Below are positions 41-16,861 of a DNA stretch of 35,659 nt, piece by piece. Source of the stretch: Elusimicrobiota bacterium (GTDB lineage: Bacteria; Elusimicrobiota; Elusimicrobia; UBA1565; UBA9628); assembly GCA_016218575.1 (NCBI GenBank), contig JACRDN010000021.1, positions 1-35,659 on the forward strand, written 5' to 3'. The notes below the pieces were generated by a model. The model ran no database searches, was not told the DNA's origin, and saw nothing but the letters and a program-made list of their open reading frames with translations. Each line of letters starts with the position of its first letter. Position 1 is the stretch's first letter. Position numbers and translations under genes: made by a program.

Positions 41-107
41 AGCGTAACCTCCTTGGTGGGCCAGTTCAAGCTGGCCTCTTTTGATTTCCTCAACCAAAGG
101 TTACGCT
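41..107 (-). promoter_or_regulatory. Leader hairpin sequestering a ribosome binding site
   Basis: Bases 41-50 pair with 98-107 (10 bp), a two-base bulge follows, and 53-56 pair with 94-97. Nested inside is a second hairpin, 59-64 with 71-76, with loop TTCAAG. Read on the minus strand, the AAGGAGG of the leftward gene (54-48) is wholly within the outer stem. On the plus strand the stem is followed by TTTTTGCTTTTT (107 onward), which resembles an intrinsic terminator, but no rightward gene ends here. The arrangement fits translational control of the leftward gene; no known riboswitch class was recognised. Confidence 0.5.
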
Positions 108-161: not shown

Positions 162-170
162 TGCTATAAT
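162..170 (+). promoter_or_regulatory. Extended -10 promoter of the tRNA gene
   Basis: TGC followed directly by a perfect TATAAT (165-170) lies 9 nt before the first base of the tRNA at 180. Transcription would start around 177, giving only a few nucleotides of 5' leader. No convincing -35 box is seen, which is usual for extended -10 promoters. Confidence 0.6.
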
Positions 171-179
171 TCAAATCTC

Positions 180-251
180 GGCGCCGTAGCTCAGAGGTAG
201 AGCGGACGTTTCATAAGCGTTAGGTCGGAGGTTCGAGTCCTCCCGGCGCCA
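180..251 (+). tRNA. tRNA with CAU anticodon, probably elongator tRNA-Met
   Basis: The 72 nt fold into a full cloverleaf. A perfect 7-bp acceptor stem pairs GGCGCCG (180-186) with CGGCGCC (244-250), with discriminator A251. The D stem is GCTC/GAGC. The anticodon stem GACGT/GCGTT closes the loop TTCATAA with anticodon CAT at 212-214. The T arm is GGAGG-TTCGAGT-CCTCC. The CCA end is not encoded. The paired first base (G1-C72) and the absence of the GGG/CCC anticodon stem argue against the initiator tRNA. A lysidine-modified tRNA-Ile (CAU) cannot be excluded by eye. Confidence 0.9.
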
Positions 252-358: not shown

Positions 359-387
359 TTGACGCTTTAGTTGCAAAAAGTTATAGT
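359..387 (+). promoter_or_regulatory. Sigma-70-type promoter of the histone-nuo operon
   Basis: TTGACG (359-364) and TATAGT (382-387) are separated by exactly 17 bp, five of six consensus matches each. Transcription would begin near 394, giving a leader of about 28 nt that includes the AAGGGGG ribosome binding site at 412-418. This is the only good promoter seen before the packed run of genes to 12319. Confidence 0.65.
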
Positions 388-422
388 AGAAGCGGTTCTT
401 ATCGCGCATCCAAGGGGGATTC

Positions 423-602
423 ATGGCCGAAACTTTCGTGGTGGTGAGCAAAATTAAGAAAATGGTCAAAGAGGCCGGTTTTCGGACCGGCGGGGACTAC
501 ATAGACGGGCTTTCCAGCAAGATCAACTCCATCGTGCAGGCCTCCATCGAGAAAGTGAAGGCGGACGGAAAGAAGAAGACCCTCGGCCTGGAAGACCTTT
601 AG
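423..602 (+). CDS. Bacterial histone-fold protein (59 aa)
   Basis: This small basic protein has the layout of a single histone fold. There is a short helix 1 (about residues 5-18, VSKIKKMVKEAG), a loop (RTGG), a long helix 2 (about 24-49) and a loop with KKKT (50-53). It ends in a short helix 3, LGLEDL. The KKKTLGLEDL end matches the archaeal histone signature RKTIKAEDI in HMfB-type proteins. The size resembles Bdellovibrio Bd0055, a bacterial histone that coats DNA. It would act as a dimer on the nucleoid. The start is fixed by AAGGGGG at 412-418 and the promoter at 359-387. It lies 21 nt before the methyltransferase gene, so it probably shares the complex I transcript. Family assignment is from motif memory, not a search. 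Confidence 0.8.
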   Translation: MAETFVVVSKIKKMVKEAGFRTGGDYIDGLSSKINSIVQASIEKVKADGKKKTLGLEDL

Positions 603-623: not shown

Positions 624-1637
624 ATGCAGACGTTCAGGGACTACATGGAGGCCGCGCTTTATGATCCGGAGCGCGGCTATTACGAGCGCCGAATCCCCAG
701 GCAGGATTTCTATACCGCTCCCGAGTTGCACCCCGCTTTCGCGGGGGTGCTGAGCCAGGAGCTTGTCCGTAGACTTGTCTCCTTAAAAGAGGATGGAGTC
801 CCGGGGCCTTACTCTTTGGTGGAGATGGGCTCAAGCAGTGTATCTCTCTCGAGAGATATCCTGAAAAATCTCAAGGAAAGGCACCCCAACCTCGCGCCCC
901 AGTTGCGCTACATCCTAGTAGAGCGCGCAAGGGAGAAACTCCTGGAGAGCGTCTTGGCGCTTTCAGCCTCCCACGAGCATATACTGGGTTACAGCAGGCT
1001 CGAGGACATCCTGCCCTGCAGCGGGGTATTCTTCTCCAATGAGCTCGTGGACGCCTTCCCGGTCCATCTCCTCGAGAAGCGGGAGGGGGAAATTCACGAG
1101 GTCTACGTGGAAGCCAATGGCAGCACCGCCCTTGCCGGCCTATCAAGCCCCGAGCTCAAGGCCCACGCTCAAAGCATGACGGACAATTTGCAGGAGGGGG
1201 AGCGTCACGCCGTCAACCTCGAGGCCCATCGCTGGCTCAAGACCGTCTCGGCCAAACTCAAGGCCGGCTATCTTCTGACCATCGACTACGGAAAGCGCTT
1301 CACCGGCACCCCGAACCCCCCGCGCGCCTTCTTCAGGCATCACACCGACGCCAAAGTGGCCGAGCGCCCCGGGGAAAAGGACATCACGGCCTCCGTGGAC
1401 TTCGAGGCCTTGATCCTGGAGGGGGGCAAGCTCGGGCTCGAGCTCGAGTGCTACTCCACCTTGGGCCGCTTCCTGGTGGAGGGAGGCATCGAGCGTTGGC
1501 TCCCGGATTCCTTGGAAGAGTCAGCCTCTTCCTCGCAATATAAATCCCGGGCAAAGATCAAGACCCTGCTCCATCCCGAGGGAATGGGGGAGGTCTTCAA
1601 GGTCCTGGTCCAGAAAAAGCGGGAGCTCGCGCCATGA
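624..1637 (+). CDS. NDUFAF7/MidA-family SAM-dependent methyltransferase
   Basis: The 337-aa product matches the family by its N-terminal YMEAALYDPERGYY (7-20), the DFYTAPELHPAF segment (28-39), the FFSNELVDAFPVHLL block and LTIDYG. In mitochondria NDUFAF7 dimethylates an arginine of NDUFS2, the NuoD homologue, during complex I assembly. The target arginine corresponds to Arg53 of the NuoD here (YLHRGTEKL). Location directly before nuoA, with a 4-nt ATGA overlap, supports the same role. Odd point: the SAM-binding loop, usually ExGxGxG, reads EMGSSSV (67-73) and lacks the second and third glycines. No clear ribosome binding site precedes the ATG, so coupling to the histone gene is possible. Confidence 0.85.
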   Translation: MQTFRDYMEAALYDPERGYYERRIPRQDFYTAPELHPAFAGVLSQELVRRLVSLKEDGVPGPYSLVEMGSSSVSLSRDILKNLKERHPNLAPQLRYILVERAREKLLESVLALSASHEHILGYSRLEDILPCSGVFFSNELVDAFPVHLLEKREGEIHEVYVEANGSTALAGLSSPELKAHAQSMTDNLQEGERHAVNLEAHRWLKTVSAKLKAGYLLTIDYGKRFTGTPNPPRAFFRHHTDAKVAERPGEKDITASVDFEALILEGGKLGLELECYSTLGRFLVEGGIERWLPDSLEESASSSQYKSRAKIKTLLHPEGMGEVFKVLVQKKRELAP

Positions 1638-1990
1638 TGAGCGCCTACGCCGCGGTGTACGTTTTCGTGCTCTTGGCCGTGGCCTTCGCCGCGGCGACCT
1701 TGATCGCTGCCAAGCTCCTGCGCCCGAGTGTGAGCTACGCGCGAAAGACCAGCACCTACGAGTGCGGCATGGAGGCCGTGGGCACCACCGAGGCCAGGCT
1801 CAACATCCGCTTTTACCTGTTCGCCCTCCTCTTCGTCATATTCGATGTCGAGACCCTCTACGTCTACCCTTGGGCCGTGACCGCCAAGGAGATCGGCCCT
1901 CTGGCCATAGCGGAGATGGCGGTGTTTTTAGCCATACTCTTCCTGGGCCTGGGCTACGCCTGGGCCAAAGGGGCCCTTGTCTGGGAGTGA
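1634..1990 (+). CDS. nuoA: NADH-quinone oxidoreductase subunit A
   Basis: A 118-aa membrane subunit of complex I with three transmembrane helices. It is recognised by the conserved YECGMEAVG loop (about 43-51) and the RFYLFALLFVIFDVETLYVYPWA segment, whose acidic residues sit near the quinone channel. The start ATG overlaps the methyltransferase stop (ATGA). A second in-frame ATG follows immediately, so the first residue may differ by one. NuoA packs against NuoH and NuoJ and carries the loop that moves during turnover. Size is normal for the family. Confidence 0.95.
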   Translation: MMSAYAAVYVFVLLAVAFAAATLIAAKLLRPSVSYARKTSTYECGMEAVGTTEARLNIRFYLFALLFVIFDVETLYVYPWAVTAKEIGPLAIAEMAVFLAILFLGLGYAWAKGALVWE

Positions 1991-1993
1991 CCC

Positions 1994-2566
1994 GTGGGCA
2001 TCATCATTGAGAAATTGCCGGGAATGACCAAAGGCCTGCCGGGGGGCGAGCTGCTGCTCACCACTGCGGACTACGTCATCGATTTGAGCCGCAAAAGCTC
2101 CCTTTGGCCCATGACCTTCGGCCTGGCCTGCTGCGCCATAGAAATGATGGGCTCCTACGCCTCTCGCTTCGACTTCGACCGCTTCGGGGTCATTCCCCGC
2201 GCCAGCCCCCGTCAAGCCGACGTCATGATCGTGGCCGGCACCGTGGTCAAGAAAATGGCCGAGCCCATCCTCCAAATCTACCATCAGATGCCGGAGCCGC
2301 GCTTCATCATCTCCATGGGCTCCTGCGCCAACTGCGGCGGGCCCTACTACGACTCTTATTCCGTGCTCAAGGGCGTGGACCGCATCGTTCCCGTGGACGT
2401 CTACATCGCGGGCTGCCCACCCCGTCCGGAGGCCCTCCAGTTCGCCGTGGTCAAGCTCCAGGAAAAAATAGCCAAAATGAAGCTCTCCCAAGGAGGGGGC
2501 GCCTCCCTCCAGCAGGAGAAGGGCAGCCGTGATATAGCCGCTGCTCCCGGCGCAAGCGCTGCATGA
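1994..2566 (+). CDS. nuoB: NADH-quinone oxidoreductase subunit B (N2 cluster)
   Basis: The 190-aa peripheral-arm subunit carries the terminal 4Fe-4S cluster N2, which hands electrons to quinone. The cluster ligands are visible as adjacent Cys46-Cys47 ([10 protein letters not shown]), Cys111 (GSCANCGG) and Cys141 (GCPPRPEA). It begins with GTG three bases after nuoA. Beyond the conserved core it has a roughly 25-residue Ala/Gly/Gln-rich tail (from about QGGGASLQQ) that most NuoB proteins lack; its role is unknown. The stop overlaps nuoC by 4 nt. Confidence 0.95.
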
Positions 2567-3135
2567 CGCGGGAAGAGCTGCTCGCCGCCGTCTGCGCTAA
2601 GATGCCGAATCTGGAAAGGGCTCAAATCCCTGTGAGGGACTACATCACCCTCCGCCTCAAATCCCCGGAGGAATTGATTCCAACCGTCTCCCTCCTCAAG
2701 GAGAGTCTTGGATTCGATTATCTCGAGATGATCACCACCGTGGATTGGCTGGGGCCGGTGAACCCCAAGGGCTACATCGCCAATCCCAATCCCAACGTTT
2801 TCCTGCCGGAGGGGGCGGTGCCCCAAAATTTCCCCGGTGCCACTCCCAACGTCGGCTACCGCCCGACCTTCGATATGCTCTGGACCTTGGCCAATCTCAA
2901 GGAGAAGGCCTGGGTGTTCCTGCGCCTGGAAATTCCCCGCGACAACCCCGATGTCCCGAGCTTGGCGGGCCTCTTCCAGGCCGCGGATTGGCAGGAGCGC
3001 GAGACTTTCGACCTCATGGGAGTCCGATTCGAGGGGCACCCGAACCTCGTCAAGATACTGACCCCCGATTTCATCCAGGGACATCCCCTGCGCAAGGATT
3101 ACGTCCACGTCAAGGACAAGTACGATGAAGACTGA
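2563..3135 (+). CDS. nuoC: NADH-quinone oxidoreductase subunit C
   Basis: The 190-aa 30-kDa-type subunit of the peripheral arm. The C-terminal signature [22 protein letters not shown] followed by GHPLRKDY is the family hallmark. NuoC is encoded separately from NuoD here, not fused as in Escherichia coli. ATG overlaps the nuoB stop, and the end overlaps nuoD by 11 nt, which indicates translational coupling. The middle region (about residues 62-95) contains an insert rich in Pro and Asn relative to short NuoC proteins. Confidence 0.94.
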
Positions 3136-4249
3136 AGAACGGCCAAAGGAGCTCAAGTCGGACTCCCTTTTCGTCAATCTGGGTCCCCAGCACCCCTCGA
3201 CCCACGGCGTCCTTCGCGTGGGCCTCACCATCGAGGGGGAGCTCATCACCAAGGCCGTTCCGGACATAGGGTACCTTCACCGCGGGACCGAGAAGTTGGC
3301 CGAGGTGCGCGGCTACCATCACTGCGTGGTGCTCACCGACCGCTGGGACTATGTCTCGGCCATGCCCAACAATCTGGTCTTCTGCCTGGCCGCGGAAAAA
3401 CTCATGGGCCTCAAGATACCGCCGCGGGCCAACTATTTGCGCGTGCTCATGTGCGAGTTGAACAGGATCGCCAGCCACCTCCTATTCTTCGGGACCTACG
3501 GCATAGACATCGGCGCCTTCACCCCGTTTCTCTACGCCTTCCGCGAGAGGGAGATGGTGCTCGATCTCTTCGAGATGTGCTGCGGGGCCAGGCTCACCTA
3601 CAACTACATTCGCTTGGGCGGGGTCATGGCGGACGTCTCCGAGGAGTGGACCGCCAAGACCAAGGAATTTCTAGGGTACTTCAAGCCGCGGCTGGACGAG
3701 TACGACACTTTGCTCAGCTTCAATCCTATTTTCCTGGCAAGAACCAAGGAAGTAGGGAAAATCTCGCCCCAGGAAGCCGTCAATTGGGCGCTCTCCGGCC
3801 CGAACCTTAGGGGTTCGGGCATACTTTACGACGTGCGCAAATCCGATCCCTACTCCAGCTACGAGGAATTCGATTTCCAGGTGCCGCTGGGCAAGGAGGG
3901 CTCCTGCTGGGACCGCTACTTCTGCCGCATCCTGGAAATGCGTGAGTCGCTGCGCATCTGCGAGCAAGCCTTGAAAGCCCTGCCCCCGGGCGAGACCATG
4001 GCAACGGGGGTCGCCAAAATCCCCAAACCCGCTCCCGGCGAGGCCTACGCCCACGTGGAGGGCTCGCGCGGAGACCTGGGGATTTACCTGGTGTCGGACG
4101 GCCAGGCCAGCCCCTACCGCATACACGTGAGGGCTCCTTCCTTCATGAATCTCGCCATTTTGGAGAAGATACTGGTGGGAAACAAGGTCTCCGATGTCAT
4201 CGCGATTTTGGGCTCGATAGACATTGTCCTCGGGGAGGTGGACCGCTGA
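3125..4249 (+). CDS. nuoD: NADH-quinone oxidoreductase subunit D
   Basis: This 374-aa 49-kDa-type subunit forms the quinone pocket with NuoB. The N-terminal [13 protein letters not shown] (19-31) carries the two conserved histidines (His23, His27). YLHRGTEKL (50-58) holds Arg53, the position that NDUFAF7 dimethylates in mitochondria. The C-terminal block ending in [18 protein letters not shown] is typical. The start was placed at the ATG overlapping nuoC, which keeps the whole conserved N-terminus. There are no hydrogenase nickel ligands, as expected for complex I. Together with the adjacent methyltransferase gene it forms an enzyme-substrate pair worth testing. Confidence 0.95.
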
Positions 4250-4250
4250 A

Positions 4251-5576
4251 ATGACCGAAGCGACCCCGACGCCTCCGGCCCCCAAGCCATCCCCCGCCCC
4301 CGCGGCGGCCAAGCCCGCTCCGGCGCCCAAAATCGCCATGCCCACGCCCGTCTTGAACCATTCCGCCGGCAAACTCTTGACCACGACCCGCTACTGGCCG
4401 ACCGAGCTTTGGGCCAACCCCTGGGCGAGCCCGAATTACCGACGCGGCGCGCTGATGCTGGCCGCGATCATCGGCGGCGTTCTGCTTACTGGCGCCGCCG
4501 TGGGAGAGCTGTCTCGATGGGGAGATAAAATATACGCCCTAATTGGGGCATTCGTCGCTTCCCAGGGTTGGCCCCAGAACACCGCCGAGGGCGCTTGGAT
4601 TCTTCTTAAAGCCCTGATCGTACTGCACGTCATACTAATCAACGGCCTTTGGGCCATCTGGTGGGAGCGAAAGATCTCGGCCCACATCCAATCCCGGGTG
4701 GGCCCGACCTACTCCGGAGGCTTCCACGGCTGGGCCCAAACCATTTTCGATGGGATCAAGCTCTTACTAAAGGAAGACATCACCCCGGACGCCGCCGACA
4801 AGTGGGTGCACGCCCTGGCCCCGGGCATCGTGGTAGCACCAGTGGTCGTGGCCTTCGCCCCGGTTTCCTTCGGCACGCAGCTCTCTGCCGCCAACATCGA
4901 CATCGGAGTCCTCTACGTCTTCGCTTTCGCGGGCATTTCTGTGATCGGCATCGTGATGGCGGGCTGGGCGTCGGGAAACAAGTATTCCCTGCTCGGAGGC
5001 CTGCGGGCGGCGGCCCAGATCGTGAGCTACGAGCTGCCGCGCGCCTTCTCCGTGGTTCCGGTGCTGATGTTGGCGGGCTCGCTCAACCTGGAGGCCATCG
5101 CCCTCGCTCAGGCCGGCTACTGGCACGGGCTCGTGCCCCGCTGGTTCCTGTTCTATCCCGTGGTCGGGCAGATCGCTTTCCTCATATTCCTTATCGCATC
5201 CGTGGCCGAGACCAACCGTACGCCCTTCGACATTCCCGAGGCCGAGTCGGAGCTCGTCTCGGGATTTCACACCGAATACTCGGGGATGAAATGGTCCATT
5301 TTCTTCCTGGCCGAGTATGGCTACGTGCTCCTGGCATCCTTCCTTTTGGCGACCTTCTTCCTGGGGGGAGGAGCACCTCCCCTTGCCCAGCTCGGCTTCA
5401 TCCCGAGCTGGATCTGGATGCTGGCCAAGGCCCTGCTCATGATGTTCATCTTCCTATGGACACGATGGACCTTCCCGCGCTTGAGGGCCGATCAATTGAT
5501 GGATTTCAATTGGAAATTCCTCCTGCCTTGGTCCTTCGCCAACATCGCCCTGGCCGGAGCCTATCTGCTGCTATGA
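4251..5576 (+). CDS. nuoH: NADH-quinone oxidoreductase subunit H with an unusual N-terminal extension
   Basis: NuoH links the peripheral arm to the membrane arm and forms the mouth of the quinone tunnel. The core is clear: WWERKISAHIQSRVGP (about 137-152), the GIKLLLKEDITPDAADKW loop, and AETNRTPFDIPEAESELVSGFHTEYSG. The protein is 441 aa from ATG 4251, against about 325-350 in typical NuoH. The extra ~100 residues comprise a Pro/Ala/Lys-rich stretch (about 5-35) and an added hydrophobic helix (about 65-88). An upstream TTG at 4224 would lengthen it further but lies inside nuoD, so ATG 4251, one base after the nuoD stop, is preferred. The final codons overlap nuoI. Confidence 0.93.
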   Translation: MTEATPTPPAPKPSPAPAAAKPAPAPKIAMPTPVLNHSAGKLLTTTRYWPTELWANPWASPNYRRGALMLAAIIGGVLLTGAAVGELSRWGDKIYALIGAFVASQGWPQNTAEGAWILLKALIVLHVILINGLWAIWWERKISAHIQSRVGPTYSGGFHGWAQTIFDGIKLLLKEDITPDAADKWVHALAPGIVVAPVVVAFAPVSFGTQLSAANIDIGVLYVFAFAGISVIGIVMAGWASGNKYSLLGGLRAAAQIVSYELPRAFSVVPVLMLAGSLNLEAIALAQAGYWHGLVPRWFLFYPVVGQIAFLIFLIASVAETNRTPFDIPEAESELVSGFHTEYSGMKWSIFFLAEYGYVLLASFLLATFFLGGGAPPLAQLGFIPSWIWMLAKALLMMFIFLWTRWTFPRLRADQLMDFNWKFLLPWSFANIALAGAYLLL

Positions 5577-6091
5577 TCGGCTACTTCAAGGATGTCTTCA
5601 GCGGGGCCTGGGCCATAACCCAGGGGCTTCTCGTGACTCTGCGCTACCTGTTCAAGCCCTCCGTCACCGTGCATTATCCCGATGAGAAGCTCGTGCCCTT
5701 CGAGAAGTTCCGCGGAGTGCTCCTATTCGATCCCGAGACCTGCATCTCCTGCAACCTCTGCGTCAAGGCCTGTCCCTCCAACTGCATCGCCCTCGAGAAC
5801 GCGACCAACCCGGAGACCAAGAAGAAGATCGCCAAGGTCGATTGGTATTCCATCGACTTCGGCAAATGCAATTTCTGCCGCCTGTGCGAGGAATCCTGCC
5901 CCACGAAGCCGAAATCCGTCTGGCACGCCTTGGACTACGAGCTCGTCTTCAATAAGCGCGACGAGATGGTGCGCTGTTGGAAGGCGGGATTCCCCATCAT
6001 CGGAAAATACTTCGACAGGAAGGAAAAAGCCTTCAAGGACCCCGAGGGCCAAGTCCCCATCCACAGCGTGCCGCCGCGACACCTAGGATAG
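5573..6091 (+). CDS. nuoI: NADH-quinone oxidoreductase subunit I (two 4Fe-4S clusters)
   Basis: The 172-aa ferredoxin-like subunit holds clusters N6a and N6b. Its two motifs are CISCNLCVKACP (Cys57, 60, 63, 67) and CNFCRLCEESCP (Cys99, 102, 105, 109). ATG overlaps the nuoH stop as ATGA. The open frame continues far upstream without a stop, but that part is a shadow of nuoH. In complexes without NuoEFG, NuoI is the likely entry point for electrons from ferredoxin or another partner, so this subunit is the place to look for the donor. Confidence 0.95.
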   Translation: MIGYFKDVFSGAWAITQGLLVTLRYLFKPSVTVHYPDEKLVPFEKFRGVLLFDPETCISCNLCVKACPSNCIALENATNPETKKKIAKVDWYSIDFGKCNFCRLCEESCPTKPKSVWHALDYELVFNKRDEMVRCWKAGFPIIGKYFDRKEKAFKDPEGQVPIHSVPPRHLG

Positions 6092-6093
6092 CC

Positions 6094-6606
6094 ATGATAG
6101 AGCAACTTGTTTTCTACTCCCTCGCCGCCGTCGCCGTCCTTTCGGCTCTGGGAGTCGTGACGATGAAAAACAGCGTGCACTCGGCCCTGATGCTGGGGCT
6201 TGCGCTCGCCGCCGTGGCGGGGGTGTTCGCGCTCCTGGGCGCTGACTTCCTCTTCGCCGGACAGGTCCTGATCTACGTCAGCGGCATCGCGGTCCTCATC
6301 ATGTTCGTGGTCATGCTTTTGGGGCGGACCTACGACCTGCACTTAAGGCAAGTCAACAACCAGTGGCTGGCGGGCCTCCTCATTTGCGGCATCACTTTCT
6401 CCGGACTTTGGCGCGTCATCGGGCTTTTTTCCGAGAGCCGCGCCCACAGCGCCCCAGTCCCCGGGACCAGGCTTTTGGGAAGGCTCCTAATGAGCGACTA
6501 CGCTCTGCCTTTCGAACTGATCTCCCTCATCCTGATGGCATCACTGCTCGGGGCGGTCTACTTCTCCCGAAGCGAACGTTCCCAGAGCAGCTCCACCAAC
6601 CCATGA
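6094..6606 (+). CDS. nuoJ: NADH-quinone oxidoreductase subunit J
   Basis: A 170-aa membrane subunit with five predicted transmembrane helices. The third helix segment, GADFLFAGQVLIYVSGIAVLIMFVVMLLG, is the conserved part, containing the tyrosine and the pi-bulge region that rotates during proton pumping. The true start is the ATG two bases after the nuoI stop; upstream open frame is a shadow. The loop before the last helix (ESRAHSAPVPGTRLLG) is normal in length. It ends overlapping nuoK by 4 nt. Confidence 0.94.
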   Translation: MIEQLVFYSLAAVAVLSALGVVTMKNSVHSALMLGLALAAVAGVFALLGADFLFAGQVLIYVSGIAVLIMFVVMLLGRTYDLHLRQVNNQWLAGLLICGITFSGLWRVIGLFSESRAHSAPVPGTRLLGRLLMSDYALPFELISLILMASLLGAVYFSRSERSQSSSTNP

Positions 6607-6908
6607 GCCTAGCCCATTACCTTTTCCTCGGATCGCTCCTATTCCTCATCGGCGTCTTCGGGGCGCTCACCAGGCGGAATATCCTGGGGATACTCATGTC
6701 CATCGAGCTCATGTTCAACGCCGCCAACATCAACCTCGCCGCCTTCAACCGCTTCCTCCACCCGCAGGGAGTGGTCGGCCAGGCCCTGGCCCTCTTCATC
6801 ATCACCATCGCGGCCGCCGAGCTCGTGGCGGGTCTGGCCTTGGTCCTGGCCATTTACCGAAACACCGACACCGTCTACGTCGAGGACTTCAACCTCCTCA
6901 AAGGATAG
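6603..6908 (+). CDS. nuoK: NADH-quinone oxidoreductase subunit K
   Basis: A 101-aa subunit with three helices, normal for the family. The two membrane glutamates needed for proton transfer are present in SIELMFNAANIN (Glu35) and in ITIAAAELVAGLALV (about Glu73). ATG overlaps the nuoJ stop (ATGA), and nuoL follows after three bases. Confidence 0.96.
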   Translation: MSLAHYLFLGSLLFLIGVFGALTRRNILGILMSIELMFNAANINLAAFNRFLHPQGVVGQALALFIITIAAAELVAGLALVLAIYRNTDTVYVEDFNLLKG

Positions 6909-6911
6909 CCA

Positions 6912-8888
6912 ATGCTCGAGCACGTCTATTTAATCCCTCTTATTCCTCTTCTGGCCGCGCCCATCATCCTGTTCTTCGGCAAGGAGGGGCCTCATTCCAA
7001 GATGCCCTACCTCGGCCTCGGCGCCATGGGCTTCTGCCTGGCCCAGTCCATCGGCATATTCGCCCAGGTCCTCGCCGGATCCCGCCATCTGCCCTACCAG
7101 GCCAATTGGAATTGGTTCGCCATGCCCGCGGACATGGGAGGAAAGGCCTTCTCCTACGACATGCCGATCGGCGTCCTCATCGATGGGCCGGCGGCCGTAA
7201 TGCTCGTGGTGGTGACCTTGGTGAGCTTCCTCGTCCAACTCTACTCCCTGGGCTACATGCACGGCGATCCGCGCTTCAAGCGCTATTACGCGTTCCTCTC
7301 CTTCTTCACCGCCTCCATGCTGGGCCTCGTCGTCTCGAGCAACCTCCTGGTCACTTTCTCCTGCTGGGAGCTGGTGGGCGTCTCCTCCTACCTCCTGATC
7401 GGCTTCTGGTTCGAGAAGCCCGCCCCGGCCTACGCCTCGAAAAAAGCTTTCATCACGACCAAGCTCGGAGACATGGGGCTCTACCTAGCCCTCCTTTTCA
7501 TCTTCGTGAGAGTGGGCTCCTTCCAAATCACCCAAATCCAGGAATTCGTCTCGCGCGGCTACATGGACTCGACAGCCGCCACCTTGATCGGCCTGGGGCT
7601 TCTCTGCGGGGCCGTGGGCAAATCCGCGCAATGGCCGCTATTCATCTGGCTTCCCGACGCCATGGAGGGTCCGACCCCGGTTTCCGCCCTCATCCACGCC
7701 GCGACCATGGTCGCGGCCGGCATTTACCTCGTGGCCAAGTGCTATTTCATTTACGCGGCGAGCCCCGTCGCCATGGAGGCCGCGGCGTGGGTGGGGCTCA
7801 CGACCGCGTTCCTCGCCGCCACCATGGCGCTAGTCGCCTACGACATCAAGAGGGTGCTCGCCTTCTCGACCGTCTCTCAACTGGGATTCATGATGTGCGC
7901 CTTGGGCTGCGGCGGCTACACGGCGGGACTCTTCCACCTCACCACCCACGCTTTCTTCAAGGCCCTCCTTTTCCTCGGGGCGGGCTCCGTCATCCACTCG
8001 GTGCATACCAACGACATGCGGCAGATGGGGGGACTCTCGAAAAAGATGCCGATCACCTTCACGACGATGTTCATCGGTACCTGCGCCATCGCCGGCATCC
8101 CCTTCCTGGCCGGGTATTACTCCAAGGACATGATCCTGGAAAAAGTTTTCGAGCACAATCGCTTCATGTTCGGGGTTCTGGCATTCACCGCCGCGCTTAC
8201 GGCTTTCTACATGTTCCGCCTGATCTTCCTGACCTTCCTGGGAACCGAGCGCGACCACGAGAAGCACCACCACGCCCACGAGTCCCCCTGGGCCATGACT
8301 TTCCCGCTCATGCTCCTGGCATTACTCTCCATCGTCTCCGGCTATCTCCTAGAGCGCCACCACATCTTCGCCGATTTGGTCCGTTTCGACATGCCCCATG
8401 AGCAAGCCGCGCATGGGGCCGCGCCCGCCGCGAGATTCATCGGGCTGGGGGTCACCGGCCTCGTCTTCTGTGCCATCGCGCTTGCCTGGGCCCTGTACCG
8501 GGACCCGGAGTTCAAGGCCGCGGAGGCCCTCAAGCAGCGCTTCCTCCTGGTTTTCAACCTCCTGGAGCAGCGCTACGGCTTCGACGCCCTTTTCTTGAGA
8601 CTGGTGGCCCTCTCCGACAAGATCGCGGCACTCGCATTTTGGTTTGACTCCAAGGTGCTCGACCAGTTCTTCATCGACGGATGGGGACTGCTCGCACGAA
8701 TCCTCTCTGAGATCAGCCATTTCTTCGACGCGGTTTTTATAGACCGCACCGTGGACGGCTTCGGGGGCTTAAGCGCGGACCTCGGAGCGGGCCTGCGCTC
8801 CTTGTCGAGCCGCGGCCAGGTCCAGGAATATTTGATGTACATCGCCGTGGCCGTGAGCCTTTTTGCCACCATGATCATATCCCGATGA
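6912..8888 (+). CDS. nuoL: NADH-quinone oxidoreductase subunit L
   Basis: This 658-aa antiporter-like subunit forms the distal end of the membrane arm, with about 16 transmembrane segments. The conserved core includes SYLLIGFWFEKPAPAYASKKAFI, the lysine-bearing GKSAQWPLFIWLPDAMEGPTPVSALIHAATMVAAG, and KRVLAFSTVSQLGFMM. A histidine-rich loop (ERDHEKHHHAHES, about 444-456) precedes the later helices. The C-terminal part runs through the amphipathic lateral helix and a final anchor helix (YIAVAVSLFATMII). Length is slightly above the E. coli protein (613 aa). Confidence 0.96.
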   Translation: MLEHVYLIPLIPLLAAPIILFFGKEGPHSKMPYLGLGAMGFCLAQSIGIFAQVLAGSRHLPYQANWNWFAMPADMGGKAFSYDMPIGVLIDGPAAVMLVVVTLVSFLVQLYSLGYMHGDPRFKRYYAFLSFFTASMLGLVVSSNLLVTFSCWELVGVSSYLLIGFWFEKPAPAYASKKAFITTKLGDMGLYLALLFIFVRVGSFQITQIQEFVSRGYMDSTAATLIGLGLLCGAVGKSAQWPLFIWLPDAMEGPTPVSALIHAATMVAAGIYLVAKCYFIYAASPVAMEAAAWVGLTTAFLAATMALVAYDIKRVLAFSTVSQLGFMMCALGCGGYTAGLFHLTTHAFFKALLFLGAGSVIHSVHTNDMRQMGGLSKKMPITFTTMFIGTCAIAGIPFLAGYYSKDMILEKVFEHNRFMFGVLAFTAALTAFYMFRLIFLTFLGTERDHEKHHHAHESPWAMTFPLMLLALLSIVSGYLLERHHIFADLVRFDMPHEQAAHGAAPAARFIGLGVTGLVFCAIALAWALYRDPEFKAAEALKQRFLLVFNLLEQRYGFDALFLRLVALSDKIAALAFWFDSKVLDQFFIDGWGLLARILSEISHFFDAVFIDRTVDGFGGLSADLGAGLRSLSSRGQVQEYLMYIAVAVSLFATMIISR

Positions 8889-8918
8889 AGGGGTGCGATT
8901 GACTATCGAGGAGCTTAT

Positions 8919-10379
8919 ATGAATCTACTGAGCCTGATCACTTTCATTCCGTTGCTGGGCGCGCTGTTCATCCTTTTCACCCCGAAGGAGAAGGAGAGAC
9001 TCATCCAAACGACAGCATTAGCCGCGGCGGGAGCGTCCCTCGCCCTGTCAATCATCCTCTATTTCCTATTCGACCGGACCACGCCGCAGATGCAGTTCAT
9101 GGAGCGGCTGCAGTGGATCCCGTCCCTCGGCATCAACTACGCCATGGGCGTTGACGGCCTTTCCTTCCCGCTCCTGCTTCTCACCACCTTCATGACATTC
9201 CTGGCCTTGGTGGGCTCGCTTGGGATCAAGGAGAGGATCAAGGAATACTTCTTCTGGTTCCTGGTCCTGGAGGTGGGGATGATCGGGGTCTTCGAGGCCT
9301 TGGATCTCGTCCTCTTCTACGTTTTCTGGGAGCTCACCTTGGTGCCGATGTACTTTCTCATCGGCATTTGGGGGGGGCCCAAGAAAGAGTTCGCGGCCAT
9401 CAAATTCTTCCTATACACCTTGGCCGGCTCGGTGTTCATGCTCTTGGCCATATTGGCCATCTACTTCAACACCAACCCGCACACCTTCGACATGCTCGCC
9501 CTCATGAAGGCCAACGCCCTGTGGAGCCAGAGGTTCCAGATCCTGGTATTCATCGGCTTCTACCTGGGATTCGCCATCAAAGTCCCGGCCTTCCCTTTCC
9601 ACACCTGGCTGCCCTTGGCCCACGTGGAGGCGCCCACGGCCGTGAGCGTGGTCCTGGCGGCCGTGCTCCTTAAAATGGGGGTTTACGGCCTCTTGCGGGT
9701 GTCCTACGCCATGCTCCCCCTGGGTTTTCAATGGTTCCTGCCCATTCTCATCGTGATCGCGGCCATAAACATCGTTTACGGCGCCCTCTGCGCCATGGCT
9801 CAGACCGACATGAAGAAGATGGTGGCCTACTCCTCGGTCAACCACATGGGCTACTGCCTTTTGGCCATCGCCGGGGTGACTGCCACCGGATTTTCCGGAG
9901 CCGTGCTCCAGATGATCAACCACGGCATCATCACTGGCTCGCTCTTCCTTTTGGTGGGGGTGATCTACGACCGCGCCCACACCCGCGACATCTCGGCCTT
10001 CGGGGGCCTCGCCGTGCGCGTCCCGGTGTTCGCGGGCCTGATGTTCCTGGCTTGCTTTGCCTCCCTAGGGCTGCCGGGCCTGGCGGGCTTTGTCAGCGAA
10101 TTTCTCTGCTTTCTCGGAGCCTTCGAGCGCTGGAAGGTCTACACCGCGGTCTCGGTGCTGGGAATACTGGCCACCGCGGCCTTCTTCCTGCGCATGATGG
10201 AGAAGGTCTTCCTCGGCCCCTTCAATCAGAAGTGGGCGGGGCTTGAGGACATGAGCGCGCGGGAGCTGACCTCCATCCTGCCCTTGACCGCTCTGACCAT
10301 CGTCCTGGGGGTCTGGCCGCGCTGGGCGCTCGACATCATGGACACGACCTTGATCCACATGGCCAATCTTTTCCGCTGA
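8919..10379 (+). CDS. nuoM: NADH-quinone oxidoreductase subunit M
   Basis: A 486-aa proton-pumping antiporter-like subunit. Diagnostic segments are YFFWFLVLEVGMIGVFEALDLVLFYVFWELTLVPMYFLIG with the key glutamate, GFAIKVPAFPFHTWLPLAHVEAPTAVSVVLAAVLLKMG with the lysine pair, and MVAYSSVNHMGY. A strong GAGGAG ribosome binding site (8908-8913) lies before the ATG in the 30-nt gap after nuoL. This is the largest gap inside the nuo block and the point where independent translation is best assured. Confidence 0.96.
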   Translation: MNLLSLITFIPLLGALFILFTPKEKERLIQTTALAAAGASLALSIILYFLFDRTTPQMQFMERLQWIPSLGINYAMGVDGLSFPLLLLTTFMTFLALVGSLGIKERIKEYFFWFLVLEVGMIGVFEALDLVLFYVFWELTLVPMYFLIGIWGGPKKEFAAIKFFLYTLAGSVFMLLAILAIYFNTNPHTFDMLALMKANALWSQRFQILVFIGFYLGFAIKVPAFPFHTWLPLAHVEAPTAVSVVLAAVLLKMGVYGLLRVSYAMLPLGFQWFLPILIVIAAINIVYGALCAMAQTDMKKMVAYSSVNHMGYCLLAIAGVTATGFSGAVLQMINHGIITGSLFLLVGVIYDRAHTRDISAFGGLAVRVPVFAGLMFLACFASLGLPGLAGFVSEFLCFLGAFERWKVYTAVSVLGILATAAFFLRMMEKVFLGPFNQKWAGLEDMSARELTSILPLTALTIVLGVWPRWALDIMDTTLIHMANLFR

Positions 10380-10385
10380 GGCCCC

Positions 10386-11816
10386 ATGTTCAACCTGCAT
10401 CTCATCTATCCGGAAATCCTCCTGAGCCTCATGGCTTTAGGACTGCTGATCGCGGAGCTCTTCGTGGCTCCCAAACATGGACGGCTGATGTATCATCTCG
10501 CCTGGCTGGTGTCCATCATTGCCCTCTGCGTGGTGGGATTTACCCTGTCCGACGCCTCCCATGCCCAGGGGATGGGAACGCTGTGGACGGTGGACCCCTT
10601 CAGCCAATTCTTCAAGATCATGATCCTCCTCATCACCGTGTTCTGCATTCTGATGGGGCTGGAGTACGAGGCCTTGCCGCCCCAGCACTCGGGAACCTTC
10701 GTCTGCCTCCTCCTTCTGGCCAGCTCGGGCCTCATGTTCCTGGTCTCCTCCGTGGATCTCCTCCTTACCTTCATCGCGCTCGAACTCGTCTCCATCTCCT
10801 CCTTCATACTGGCAGGCTTCGAGCGCCGCAATCCCAAATCCAACGAGGGGGCCATGAAATATTTCCTTTTCGGAGCCTTCTCCTCGGCCGTGATGGCCTA
10901 CGGCATCTCCCTCTTCTACGGCGCGACGGGGGGCACGAAGCTCATTGGCCTGGCTCAAACCAACGGGCCGGTTTTCATTCTCTCCATGCTCCTGATACTC
11001 CTTGGTTTCGGCTTCAAGGCCTCCATCGCTCCCATGCATTTCTGGGTTCCGGACGCCTACGAGGGGGCCCCGACTCCGGTCACGACCTACCTGTCCCTGG
11101 CCCCCAAGATCGCGACCTTGGGGGCGATGCTCCGCCTCTTCAGCGTGCTCCTTCCCATATCGGTCCTAGATCTTACCGTGCTCTTTTCGATACTGGCGGG
11201 GCTCACCATGATCGTGGGAAATTTTACCGCCTTCTTCCAGGAAAACGTCAAAAGGATGCTCGCCTACTCCTCGGTGGCCCAAGCCGGCTACATCCTGATC
11301 GGCATCGTCTCTGGAAACACCTTGGGGTTGGAAGGGGTGCTTCTCTACTCCTTCATTTATATCGCCATGAACCTGGGCGCCTTCGCCGTGACCCAGGCCG
11401 TGGCTCAAACAAGCCCCGAGCCCGGCCACGACCCCTATGGCCTTCAAGCCTTCAACGGCCTCTCCCGGCGCTCATTCGGCTTGGCCTTGGCCATGACATT
11501 CTTCCTTCTCTCCCTTTCCGGGATCCCCCCGATGGCGGGGTTTATCGGCAAGTTCTACATCTTTTCCTCCGCGGTCGAGACCGGGCATTACGGCCTGGCG
11601 GCCCTGGGTCTTGTCAACAGCGTGGTCTCCGTCTACTACTACATGCGCATCGCCTACCACATGTTTTTCGTGCCCTCAACCAACTCGACGCCCGTCTCGG
11701 TCGGCCCCTACCTCTACGGAAGCTTGGCCGTGGCCATAGCCGGAGTGCTCTTGTTTGGAATCTACCCGGAGCCCCTGATCGCCTCGGTGCAGGCCTCAGC
11801 GCATTATCTGCCATGA
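10386..11816 (+). CDS. nuoN: NADH-quinone oxidoreductase subunit N
   Basis: A 476-aa antiporter-like subunit with the family pattern: LLTFIALELVSISSFILAGFERRNPKSNEGAMKYFLFG, the lysine segment GFGFKASIAPMHFWVPDAYEGAPTPVTTYLSLAPKIA, and RMLAYSSVAQAGYILIG. It starts six bases after nuoM and completes the 11-subunit set. Genes for NuoE, NuoF and NuoG, which oxidise NADH in the 14-subunit enzyme, are not in this window. The stop overlaps the next small gene by 4 nt. Confidence 0.96.
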   Translation: MFNLHLIYPEILLSLMALGLLIAELFVAPKHGRLMYHLAWLVSIIALCVVGFTLSDASHAQGMGTLWTVDPFSQFFKIMILLITVFCILMGLEYEALPPQHSGTFVCLLLLASSGLMFLVSSVDLLLTFIALELVSISSFILAGFERRNPKSNEGAMKYFLFGAFSSAVMAYGISLFYGATGGTKLIGLAQTNGPVFILSMLLILLGFGFKASIAPMHFWVPDAYEGAPTPVTTYLSLAPKIATLGAMLRLFSVLLPISVLDLTVLFSILAGLTMIVGNFTAFFQENVKRMLAYSSVAQAGYILIGIVSGNTLGLEGVLLYSFIYIAMNLGAFAVTQAVAQTSPEPGHDPYGLQAFNGLSRRSFGLALAMTFFLLSLSGIPPMAGFIGKFYIFSSAVETGHYGLAALGLVNSVVSVYYYMRIAYHMFFVPSTNSTPVSVGPYLYGSLAVAIAGVLLFGIYPEPLIASVQASAHYLP

Positions 11817-12319
11817 ACAACAAGACAGCCTTCTTCGCAATCATGATTCTTTCTGTTGGAGCTCTTCACGCCGCCGCGGCCGCTCCCTCGCCGGCGCTCG
11901 ACCAGTTGGCCCTGGAGGCCGGGCGAGACCCCGGAGCGCTCACCGGGGCGGAAGGCCTCAAGGCCTCGGCCGGAACGGGTTTCACCGGAGGCGACCCGGC
12001 GCCGGCAGCAGCGCTAGCCTCGGAGCGCGCCGACGCCTGGGAGTTGGACATCCTAGGGGAAGGGGGGAGGAGCCCGGCTCCGAATTTGCGGGCGAACATC
12101 CCTCCTGTCGGTCAAGGGAAAAAAGCGGAGAAAGACAAGAAAAAATCCAGCCGAGCCAAGGAGGGCATCATCCCCTCCATGTACATCTACGGCGCCTTGG
12201 GGCTTGGGGCGCTCGCCACCGCCGCGGCCATATTCTTCTTTCCGCCGCTGTTATTCCTGGGGGGAGTCGGCGTCGGCATCGGCGGGCTTCTCTGGTACAT
12301 CAACAGCAAGTTTCAGTAA
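11813..12319 (+). CDS. Exported or membrane-anchored protein of unknown function at the end of the nuo operon
   Basis: The 168-aa product is not recognised. It has an N-terminal signal peptide (about 1-24, hydrophobic then AAAAAP), a low-complexity Ala/Gly/Pro-rich stretch (25-105), and a basic segment KKAEKDKKKSSRAKEG (about 103-118). Two adjacent hydrophobic segments end the protein (about 121-162, with FFFPPLLFLGGVGVGIGG). Its ATG overlaps the nuoN stop (ATGA), so it is translated from the same message. An accessory or assembly role for the membrane arm is possible but rests only on position. It ends overlapping the opposing gene by 7 bp, with no terminator visible. Confidence 0.75.
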   Translation: MNNKTAFFAIMILSVGALHAAAAAPSPALDQLALEAGRDPGALTGAEGLKASAGTGFTGGDPAPAAALASERADAWELDILGEGGRSPAPNLRANIPPVGQGKKAEKDKKKSSRAKEGIIPSMYIYGALGLGALATAAAIFFFPPLLFLGGVGVGIGGLLWYINSKFQ

Positions 12320-14217: not shown

Positions 14218-15606
14218 GTGAGCGCCGAGTTGGAGCGCGTCTACCGCGAGAATTTCAAGGAAATAAAGCCGCCGCTCAAGCCCGAGGAGGCCCGGCTTGA
14301 GGCAAGCCGCTGCCTTTATTGCTACGACGCCCCCTGCGTGCGAGCCTGTCCGACCCACATAGACGTTCCCCGCTTCATCAAGCAGATCGCCTCCGATAAC
14401 CTCAAGGGCTCGGCCAAGACCATCCTCGAGGCCAACCCCCTGGGCCACTCCTGCGCCCGGGCCTGCCCCGTGGAAGTGCTCTGCGAAGGGGCCTGCGTCT
14501 ACCACGAGTGGCAGGATCATCCCATACAGATCGCCAAGCTCCAGCGCCGCGCCACGGATTACCTGCACGAGCTGGGGGGAGCCGGCCCGTTTAAGCCCGC
14601 GCCGGACAATGGGCATCGCGTGGCCGTGATCGGAGCGGGCCCGGCTGGGATTTCCTGCGCCGTGTACCTGCGCAGGCTCGGCTACGCCGTGACGATTTTC
14701 GAGAAAGAGAAGGTTCCCGGCGGCCTCAACACCTTCGGCATCGCCGAGTATAAGATGGGGCGAAAGGTCTCTCTGGCGGAAGCCAAGATGGCTTTTGCTT
14801 TGGGGGTAAAGCTCTCTTCAGGCAAGGAAGTAGGCAAGGACATATTGCCGCGAAGTCTCCTCGAGGACTTCTCGGCGATATTCATCGCCACGGGTCTCGG
14901 CTCCACCCAGCGCCTGGGCGTCCCGGGCGAGGACCTGCCCGGGGTTTGGGAGGCCCTCGCCTTCATCCGCCATGTCAAGAACCGCGAGCTTTCGGCCTTG
15001 GGCAGCAGCGCCTTGACCGTGGTGATCGGCGGGGGAAACACGGCCATAGACGCGGCCACCCAATCCAAGAGGATCGGAACCCCGCGTGTCGTCATGGCCT
15101 ACCGCCGCTCCGCCGCGGAGATGGGCGCCTACGGCTTCGAGTACGAACTCGCCAAGCAAGACGAGGCCGAGTTTCTTTGGAACTCCGCCCCCGTGCGCAT
15201 TATCGGCAGGAAGAAGGTCGAGGGAGTCGAGTTCCAAAAAACGCGGGTCAAAGGAGGAAAGCTCCACCTTCTCCCCGGTTCCCATTTCACCATTGCTTGC
15301 GATCGAGTCATCAAGGCCATCGGCCAAAGCCAGCTCCGCGATCTCGCCCAAGCCATGAATTTCAAGCTCGATAAAGACGGCAGGATCGCCGTCAACCCCG
15401 AGACTTTGCGGACCTCCGTTTCCAAGATCTTCGCTGGGGGGGACGCGATCAACGGCGGAAAGGAAGTGGTCAACGCCGCGGCCGACGGCAAGCGCGCCGC
15501 GCTCGCCATCCACCGCTTCCTGATGCCCGCGGCCGAGCTCTCCCCGGAGAACCGCTACTGGGCGCGAACCATCGAGAGCCGCCCAGCCGAGGCCCTCCAT
15601 GCCTGA
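14218..15606 (+). CDS. preT: NAD(P)-dependent dihydropyrimidine dehydrogenase subunit PreT
   Basis: A 462-aa GltD-like flavoprotein that passes electrons from NAD(P)H to PreA for reduction of uracil and thymine. The N-terminal iron-sulfur domain shows two Cys groups: Cys32, 35, 40, 44 (CLYCYDAPCVRAC) and Cys79, 83, 89, 93 (SCARACPVEVLCEGAC). An FAD motif, VIGAGPAGISCAVYLRRLG, starts near 137, and a nucleotide motif, VIGGGNTAIDAA, lies near 268. Size and order match the family. The start is a GTG without a ribosome binding site, consistent with a leaderless message. It heads the pyrimidine operon and overlaps preA by 8 nt. Confidence 0.92.
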   Translation: MSAELERVYRENFKEIKPPLKPEEARLEASRCLYCYDAPCVRACPTHIDVPRFIKQIASDNLKGSAKTILEANPLGHSCARACPVEVLCEGACVYHEWQDHPIQIAKLQRRATDYLHELGGAGPFKPAPDNGHRVAVIGAGPAGISCAVYLRRLGYAVTIFEKEKVPGGLNTFGIAEYKMGRKVSLAEAKMAFALGVKLSSGKEVGKDILPRSLLEDFSAIFIATGLGSTQRLGVPGEDLPGVWEALAFIRHVKNRELSALGSSALTVVIGGGNTAIDAATQSKRIGTPRVVMAYRRSAAEMGAYGFEYELAKQDEAEFLWNSAPVRIIGRKKVEGVEFQKTRVKGGKLHLLPGSHFTIACDRVIKAIGQSQLRDLAQAMNFKLDKDGRIAVNPETLRTSVSKIFAGGDAINGGKEVVNAAADGKRAALAIHRFLMPAAELSPENRYWARTIESRPAEALHA

Positions 15607-16861
15607 CCTTTCCGCCGACTGCGCCGGCATCCGCTCCCCCAACCCATTCTGGCTCGCCTCGGCTCCGCCCACCAATTCCGGGGAGCAGGTGATGCGGGCC
15701 TTCGAACCGGGCTGGGGCGGGGCGGTCTGGAAGACCTTGGGGGTTGACCCGCCTGTCGTCAACGTCACCTCCCGCTACGGCTCCCTCGACATCGGCGGGC
15801 AGAAAATGGCGGGCTTCAACAACATCGAACTCATCACGGACCGGCCCCTGGCGGATAATTTGAGGGAAATATACGAAGTCAAAAAACGCTTTCCCAATAA
15901 CGCCGTCATCGCATCGCTCATGGTTCCCTGCGAGCGCCAAGCCTGGCACGACATCGTGGCAAGGGTGGTGGAGGCGGGCTCGGACGGCATCGAGCTCAAT
16001 TTCGGCTGCCCCCATGGGATGTCCGAGCGCGGCATGGGCGCGGCCGTGGGCCAGGTCCCGGACTACGTGAAGATGGTGACCGAATTCGTAAAGGAGAAGT
16101 CCTCCATACCCGTCCTCGTCAAGCTGACGCCCAACGTCACCGACGTGCGCCACCCGGCCCGGGCCGCTGCCGCGGGGGGGGCCGACGGGATCTCGCTTAT
16201 CAATACCATCAATTCCGTCATGGGCGTGGATCTGGAAACTCTCAAGCCCAAATTTTCCGTGGGGGGAAAAATCGCCCATGGCGGCTACTGCGGCCCGGCC
16301 GTCAAGCCCATCGCCATGCATATGGTGAGCCAAATCGCAGCCGACCCTCAGACCCGGGGCATCCCCATCTCAGGGATAGGGGGAATCTCCACCTGGTCGG
16401 ACGCCGTGGAGTTCATGCTTCTGGGCGCCTCCTCGGTCCAACTCTGCACCGCGGTCATGCATTACGGATTCCGCATCATTTCGGAGCTGGTCTCGGGCCT
16501 CGAGGATTGGATGGACGCCAAGGGCTTCTCGAGGCTAGAGGACTTCATCGGCAAGAGCTCCGCGCACATCGTGGACTGGAACGAGCTGAATCTCCGCCAC
16601 AAGACCGTGGCCTCGATAGACCGTTCCACGTGCATCGCCTGCGACCTCTGCGCCATCGCCTGCCACGACGGGGCGCACCAGTGCATCAAGATCGGAAGGG
16701 ACCGCAAGCCCCGCGTCGTGGCCGAGGACTGCGTGGGCTGCAACCTCTGCTCCTTGGTTTGCCCCGTGGACGGCTGCATCTCCATGAAAGAGGTCAAAAC
16801 GGATCTAGCGCCCCTCACCTGGAAGGAATACTCCACATGCCTGCCGAAACCGACAATCTAA
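15599..16861 (+). CDS. preA: Dihydropyrimidine dehydrogenase subunit PreA
   Basis: The 420-aa FMN-dependent TIM barrel reduces uracil or thymine to the 5,6-dihydro form. The catalytic cysteine, equivalent to Cys671 of pig dihydropyrimidine dehydrogenase, is Cys137 in ELNFGCPHGMSERGMG. The FMN site shows ISGIGGISTWSDAVEFMLLGA. Two C-terminal 4Fe-4S motifs follow, CIACDLCAIACHDGAHQC and CVGCNLCSLVCPVDGC. It forms a heterotetramer with PreT in known systems. The direction is not set by sequence, but the dihydropyrimidinase, ureidopropionase and aminotransferase genes downstream argue for degradation. Confidence 0.94.
   Translation: MPDLSADCAGIRSPNPFWLASAPPTNSGEQVMRAFEPGWGGAVWKTLGVDPPVVNVTSRYGSLDIGGQKMAGFNNIELITDRPLADNLREIYEVKKRFPNNAVIASLMVPCERQAWHDIVARVVEAGSDGIELNFGCPHGMSERGMGAAVGQVPDYVKMVTEFVKEKSSIPVLVKLTPNVTDVRHPARAAAAGGADGISLINTINSVMGVDLETLKPKFSVGGKIAHGGYCGPAVKPIAMHMVSQIAADPQTRGIPISGIGGISTWSDAVEFMLLGASSVQLCTAVMHYGFRIISELVSGLEDWMDAKGFSRLEDFIGKSSAHIVDWNELNLRHKTVASIDRSTCIACDLCAIACHDGAHQCIKIGRDRKPRVVAEDCVGCNLCSLVCPVDGCISMKEVKTDLAPLTWKEYSTCLPKPTI

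Follow-up and report, generated by a model that had tools for sequence, protein, structure and literature searches.

A 59-residue histone is encoded at the head of the complex I (nuo) genes of an Elusimicrobiota bacterium, and this position recurs through many families of the phylum. The order histone - methyltransferase - nuo was part of the original prediction for this DNA, and it is both present in the window and conserved in relatives. The genomic linkage of a bacterial histone with complex I appears to be new; a literature search found no paper connecting the two, supplementary figures lying outside that search. The protein itself belongs to a known family, within which it has a signature of its own, so that the novelty lies in its conserved respiratory context. 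The window is the whole stretch of DNA analysed, 35,659 nt of contig JACRDN010000021.1 (assembly GCA_016218575.1), and all coordinates are window positions. The accompanying survey covered one phylum, as 341 Elusimicrobiota genomes of 100 genera, in which genomes (G), loci (L), families (f1-f29) and genera (g) carry working labels, not taxon names. The features of the locus are as follows.

58..77, plus strand: intrinsic-terminator-like hairpin upstream of the locus, from a consensus scan, which is not evidence of function
165..170, plus strand: TATAAT, candidate -10 element of the tRNA promoter, read directly
180..251, plus strand: tRNA with a CAT anticodon, called tRNA-Met (ARAGORN)
359..387, plus strand: candidate sigma-70-type promoter before the histone, TTGACG-17-TATAGT, weak at 10 of 12 consensus matches
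412..418, plus strand: ribosome-binding-like AAGGGGG, read directly from the sequence
423..602, plus strand: alpha3-type bacterial histone by sequence, conservation and predicted fold; ATG start, 59 aa, MAETFVVVSKIKKMVKEAGFRTGGDYIDGLSSKINSIVQASIEKVKADGKKKTLGLEDL
624..1637, plus strand: MidA/NDUFAF7-type SAM-dependent methyltransferase homologue (PF02636, E=8.8e-38), starting 21 nt after the histone stop
1634..1990, plus strand: nuoA (NCBIfam; PF00507)
1994..2566, plus strand: nuoB (NCBIfam)
2563..3135, plus strand: nuoC (NCBIfam)
3125..4249, plus strand: nuoD (NCBIfam)
4224..5576, plus strand: nuoH (NCBIfam)
5573..6091, plus strand: nuoI (Fer4 domains; start chosen by eye)
6094..6606, plus strand: nuoJ (PF00499, E=2.1e-32; start chosen by eye)
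6603..6908, plus strand: nuoK (PF00420, E=6.8e-27; start chosen by eye)
6912..8888, plus strand: nuoL (NCBIfam)
8919..10379, plus strand: nuoM (NCBIfam)
10386..11816, plus strand: nuoN (NCBIfam)

The short frame at 423-602 had been proposed to be a real histone gene, and it is upheld as one by its relatives throughout the phylum, by codon-position bias, by sequence matches to the Bdellovibrio histone HBb and the Leptospira histone HLp, and by its predicted fold. Two outcomes had been named that would refute the proposal, a model lacking the histone fold and an ORF missing from relatives; both were looked for, and neither came about. A first round gave 25 relatives at 63-83% identity on named contigs, whose titles almost all refer to Elusimicrobia or Endomicrobia; the profile survey of the phylum then brought matches in 98 of 341 genomes, spread over 60 of the 100 genera. 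In 97 of the 98 the match is to the nuo-linked subfamily; the remaining genome, G181, holds only a weak match of another type. Substitutions relative to members of the same family fall 430/192/1027 on codon positions 1/2/3 (26/12/62%), showing that the reading frame is under protein selection. The frame is short and the Pfam and NCBIfam scans returned no model matching the 59-aa protein, as would be the case for a chance open reading frame, and the missing match was not taken as evidence against a histone; with phylum-wide conservation, codon bias and fold all opposed to it, a chance frame has already been refuted and is close to inconceivable.

On sequence and predicted fold, the 423-602 product is a single-domain alpha3-type bacterial histone. 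Among solved structures, its best phmmer match is HBb (Bd0055) of Bdellovibrio (E=4.5e-8, residues 1-54), followed by HLp (E=1.9e-7) and by 9f2c, titled HTkC of Thermococcus (E=7.7e-4). The AlphaFold2 monomer model, built from an alignment of 26 relatives with a mean pLDDT of 88.6, predicts helices at 2-17, 24-48 and 56-58, the last a one-turn alpha3. The five solved structures ranked highest for this model by Foldseek are HLp, HBb and HTkC entries (TM 0.75-0.77, rmsd 1.3-1.5 A, probability 1.00), so that the model has a histone fold and, at a TM of about 0.76, comes closest among solved structures to alpha3 histones of bacteria and archaea; the E-values of these matches are no better than 2e-3, a weakness to be expected with a protein of this length. 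Elusimicrobiota histones have been reported before (Hocher et al. 2023, PMC10627809; Schwab et al. 2024, PMC11390915), and the protein family is therefore not new. The second of these surveys placed them with the bacterial dimers, alpha3 histones having a single fold, an alpha3 of 3-4 residues, a shortened alpha2, an RKT...D motif in loop 2 with an RD clamp, and alpha1 lysines 11, 13 and 17 (PMC11390915). The present protein agrees in its single histone fold with alpha3 at residues 56-58 (AlphaFold2, Foldseek) and in alpha1 lysines K10, K12 and K16, held by 96-97 of 97 members; in loop 2 the K-T and D are kept in 96-97 of 97 and the clamp Arg is mostly Lys. The DUF1931 or pseudodimeric type does not apply, the 59-aa chain holding one histone fold. 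A second Elusimicrobiota histone type was found with the same profile at loci L131-L135 (G174, G212, G196, G325 and G204); its histone-fold sequence has the classical GRKT in loop 2 and no R-T-G in loop 1, and it is mostly more basic than the nuo-linked subfamily and lies outside the nuo cluster.

The subfamily alignment gives a distinct residue signature. V7, S9, K12, K16, R21, S31, T53 and D58 are invariant in all 97 members, K10 and K52 are present in 96 and K13 in 89, and position 51, that of the RD clamp, is Lys in 91 and Arg in 6. The end KKKTLGLEDL had been read as the counterpart of archaeal RKTIKAEDI, a reading that holds up in the near-complete retention of K52, T53 and D58. The archaeal nucleosomal histone HMfB ends in a motif that we take to be KTIKAED, and the corresponding motif here is KTLGAED. 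In an alignment by eye R21 falls on the sprocket R19 of archaeal histones, but compared with HMfB the present protein is shorter, with a shorter alpha2, a one-turn alpha3 and no archaeal-type tetramerisation region. The sprocket Arg has been reported as not conserved in bacterial histones (Hocher et al., PMC10627809), and a subfamily that keeps an Arg in the sprocket position in every member while the clamp Arg has gone to Lys should be useful for tracing histone evolution.

The closest protein of solved structure by sequence is HBb of Bdellovibrio bacteriovorus (PDB 8fvx, 8cmp, 9ezz, 9f0e), which is likewise about 60 aa long and tailless, with an alpha3 histone fold, an S9-K10 motif and KT in loop 2, at 40-42% identity in structural alignment. 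Relative to HBb, one residue is missing from loop 1 and one is added in loop 2 (alignment and inspection by eye), Arg stands at the N22 position, Lys replaces the RD-clamp Arg and Glu replaces R57. Ten main DNA contacts have been named for HBb (PMC11317129). Here S9, K10, K12, K16, K52 and T53 are kept in 96-97 of 97, and T8, N22, S24 and R57 have become V8, R21, G23 and E57. Non-specific DNA binding and bending are demonstrated for HBb, and its contact residues are retained in part in the Elusimicrobiota protein. The top fold match is HLp, the face-to-face histone of Leptospira perolatii (PDB 9qt0-9qt2), with which the loop 1 region GFxTxGDxxDGL is shared. HLp forms its tetramer through R49, N53 and R55 (PMC12701072). 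A by-eye reading of the HLp alignment and residue table found no such conserved set here, which sets the subfamily apart from the face-to-face tetrameric histones (HLp, HTkC; HLp numbering) and makes a dimer the likelier form. The genomic setting differs as well, since the HLp gene adjoins smc/map rather than nuo and only the Elusimicrobiota gene, in comparison with that of HBb, sits in a respiratory gene cluster.

From these comparisons we consider it probable, taking the proposal as a whole, that the protein is a DNA-bending nucleoid histone that acts alongside HU and whose dose tracks the respiratory operon. It would form a homodimer, bind the DNA backbone without sequence preference and bend it, by analogy with HBb, and would be translated from the head of a unit running tRNA(CAT) - histone - midA - nuoABCDHIJKLMN. 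At the head of a respiratory transcription unit its dose would rise and fall with complex I, and co-expression with respiration is presumably what selection preserves. Against this proposal were counted the changed strong HBb contacts and a net charge of only +3. HU was found in 315 of 341 genomes, so that the histone is an addition to HU, and its candidacy as an HU replacement was ruled out.

Linkage was evaluated by comparing histone positions with NuoA positions across the phylum, using strong NuoA matches. Among the matches listed, 70 genomes hold both, and in a raw count of 64 of these nuoA follows the histone in the same orientation, no more than about 1.3 kb away. Three of the six exceptions are on contigs that stop shortly after the histone gene, where the remaining sequence starts midA (G207, G208) or menG (G162); with contig ends allowed for, the raw count rises to 67 of 70, again among the matches listed, and the true exceptions are G111, G327 and G334. 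The conservation of gene order on which the original prediction was to be judged is thus seen. Alpha3 histones have been stated to be single-gene operons (Schwab et al. 2024 survey, PMC11390915), a generalisation from which the gene order of this subfamily departs. Between histone and nuoA the intervening slot holds midA in families f1, f2, f3, f12, f14 and f15, the menaquinone-synthesis gene menG/UbiE in f4, f6, f9, f10 and f11 (NCBIfam UbiE at 2e-55 for one), and it is empty in f5 and in a few more. Genes 5' of the histone at L001, L012, L022 and L083 (f4, f5, f9, f10) resemble cysteine synthase and a JAMM-type protease, read by eye as a possible sulfur-metabolism cluster.

The linkage might also be neutral, with an ordinary nucleoid protein profiting from a strong tRNA or rex promoter and nuo lying downstream by inherited order, uncoupled from it; this is a quite possible reading, though not the one we expect. 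Within one class, inertia can keep a gene order in place; many genomes have a tRNA 22-150 nt before the histone, and 27 histone-bearing genomes have no strong NuoA among the matches listed. Yet nuoA linkage survives across many families whether the slot holds midA, menG or no gene, and with differing upstream neighbours, which supports a dose tied to respiration, and adjacency to rex recurs in f25, where nuo is elsewhere or absent. Counted against a respiratory dose were the many genomes of family f8 with nuo and without this histone; nuo is often present in f8 and the histone almost never, and most f8 nuo loci looked at are divergent, with NuoD about 38-41% identical. Co-loss gave a mixed pattern, histone and nuo both being lost in genus g9 and others and the histone outlasting nuo in G203, G215 and G218-G220, and it was dropped as proof of coupling.

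The respiratory operon of the window had been drawn from 624 to 12319. Its nuo genes are indeed there, but nuoN ends at 11816, and 12319 is the end of an overlapping frame. No nuoE, nuoF or nuoG is found in this nuoABCDHIJKLMN operon, and its link to NADH is thus not established. The genome has a further complex I-like locus (L152, G000:C18:15000-34900), which is without a histone; it carries subunits of the NuoF, A, B, C, D, H, I and M/N types, among them the only NuoF-type match. Elsewhere in the window, 14218-16858 and 18224-19702 hold a pyrimidine-degradation-like pair, with Fer4_20/Pyr_redox and DHO_dh/Fer4_21 domains, and then a nucleobase permease. Human NDUFAF7 methylates a complex I subunit (PMC3829151), and the 624-1637 methyltransferase is a homologue of such complex I assembly proteins, not an obvious histone-modifying enzyme. 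The latter role was considered and is unsupported, given the target of NDUFAF7 and the presence of menG in the same slot in several families. The shared neighbourhood of midA or menG and nuo could also suggest that the histone fold itself was repurposed away from DNA, for instance as an assembly factor for complex I or the quinone pathway. This is very improbable, for the basic, DNA-facing residues are invariant and the gene is retained in the 27 genomes noted above, which shows that it is not a dedicated complex I factor.

Returning to the proposed nucleoid histone, gene spacing suggests that it is co-transcribed with the respiratory genes, in line with the shared promoter of the original prediction. 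Histone and midA stand 21 nt apart in the window and 9-34 nt apart in most f1 genomes, and in G185, G186, G172 and G179 a midA-homologous frame overlaps the histone stop, the true midA start codon being uncertain there. Most genomes of f1, f2, f3 and f15 have a tRNA with a CAT anticodon ahead of the histone in the same orientation. In the window the gap from tRNA to histone is 171 nt and contains the promoter-like 359-387, a candidate only slightly above chance (1 found against 0.5 expected in shuffles); in G203, G205, G198 and f3 the gap is only 22-50 nt, so that a separate promoter would hardly fit there, if at all. The 3' end of the window's tRNA, gagtcctcccggcgcca (235-251), is repeated about 100 bp downstream at 337-353, with an inverted copy, taggactcgaacc, between the repeats and a strong predicted hairpin in 252-358 (z about -2); the 235-353 repeat region resembles a partial tRNA duplication or an insertion remnant.

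In sister families the histone occupies the same head position and is followed by menG; sometimes rex comes before it, and there its supply would come under NADH/NAD+ control. The gene rex lies directly upstream of the histone in six genomes, with gaps of 5-54 nt: L022 in G002 (f5), L012 in G166 and L060 in G168 (f10), L014 in G170 (f11), and L092 in G327 and L062 in G328 (f25). The f25 genes were identified by Pfam in G328 and by similarity in G327, and a phylum scan with the Rex N-terminal family matched the same places. Sites were scored against what we take to be the Rex operator consensus. In G170, TTGTGATGTGTTTCACAA at the rex start has one mismatch from it, with none of 2000 shuffles as good, first-order composition being preserved only approximately in these shuffles; G002 and G168 have sites with three mismatches (P 0.009 and 0.024), and G166, G327 and G328 have nothing clearly better than shuffles. 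Low-threshold matches in other loci are estimated to be near chance level. No Rex gene was found in the genome of the window and no Rex operator in the region, so Rex control of the window's own operon was rejected, and redox control stands as a lead from sister lineages, not as a claim for this genome.

First position in a multi-gene operon, together with rex adjacency in some genomes and the low net charge, would also suit a local regulator, a histone-fold protein whose main target would be its own operon, by autoregulation or control of nuo, in the manner of specialised histone-fold transcription factors. Such a role is unlikely: the conserved residues are those of general backbone binding (PMC11317129), and the gene is kept where nuo is missing.

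In summary, bacterial alpha3 histones have so far been described as stand-alone genes, and the control of their dose is a standing question. A subfamily whose gene stays fixed beside those for respiration throughout one class offers a testable entry to what bacterial histones are for, and raises the question of whether histone supply follows respiration or redox state. More speculatively, and as a suggestion that we hold rather doubtful, the Elusimicrobiota histone could be part of energy-sensing circuitry, its synthesis coupled to the genes for complex I and menaquinone, and to Rex in some lineages, with chromatin compaction following the redox or respiratory state. From its near-exceptionless position beside complex I in one large part of the phylum, these bacteria may switch DNA packaging in step with energy metabolism.
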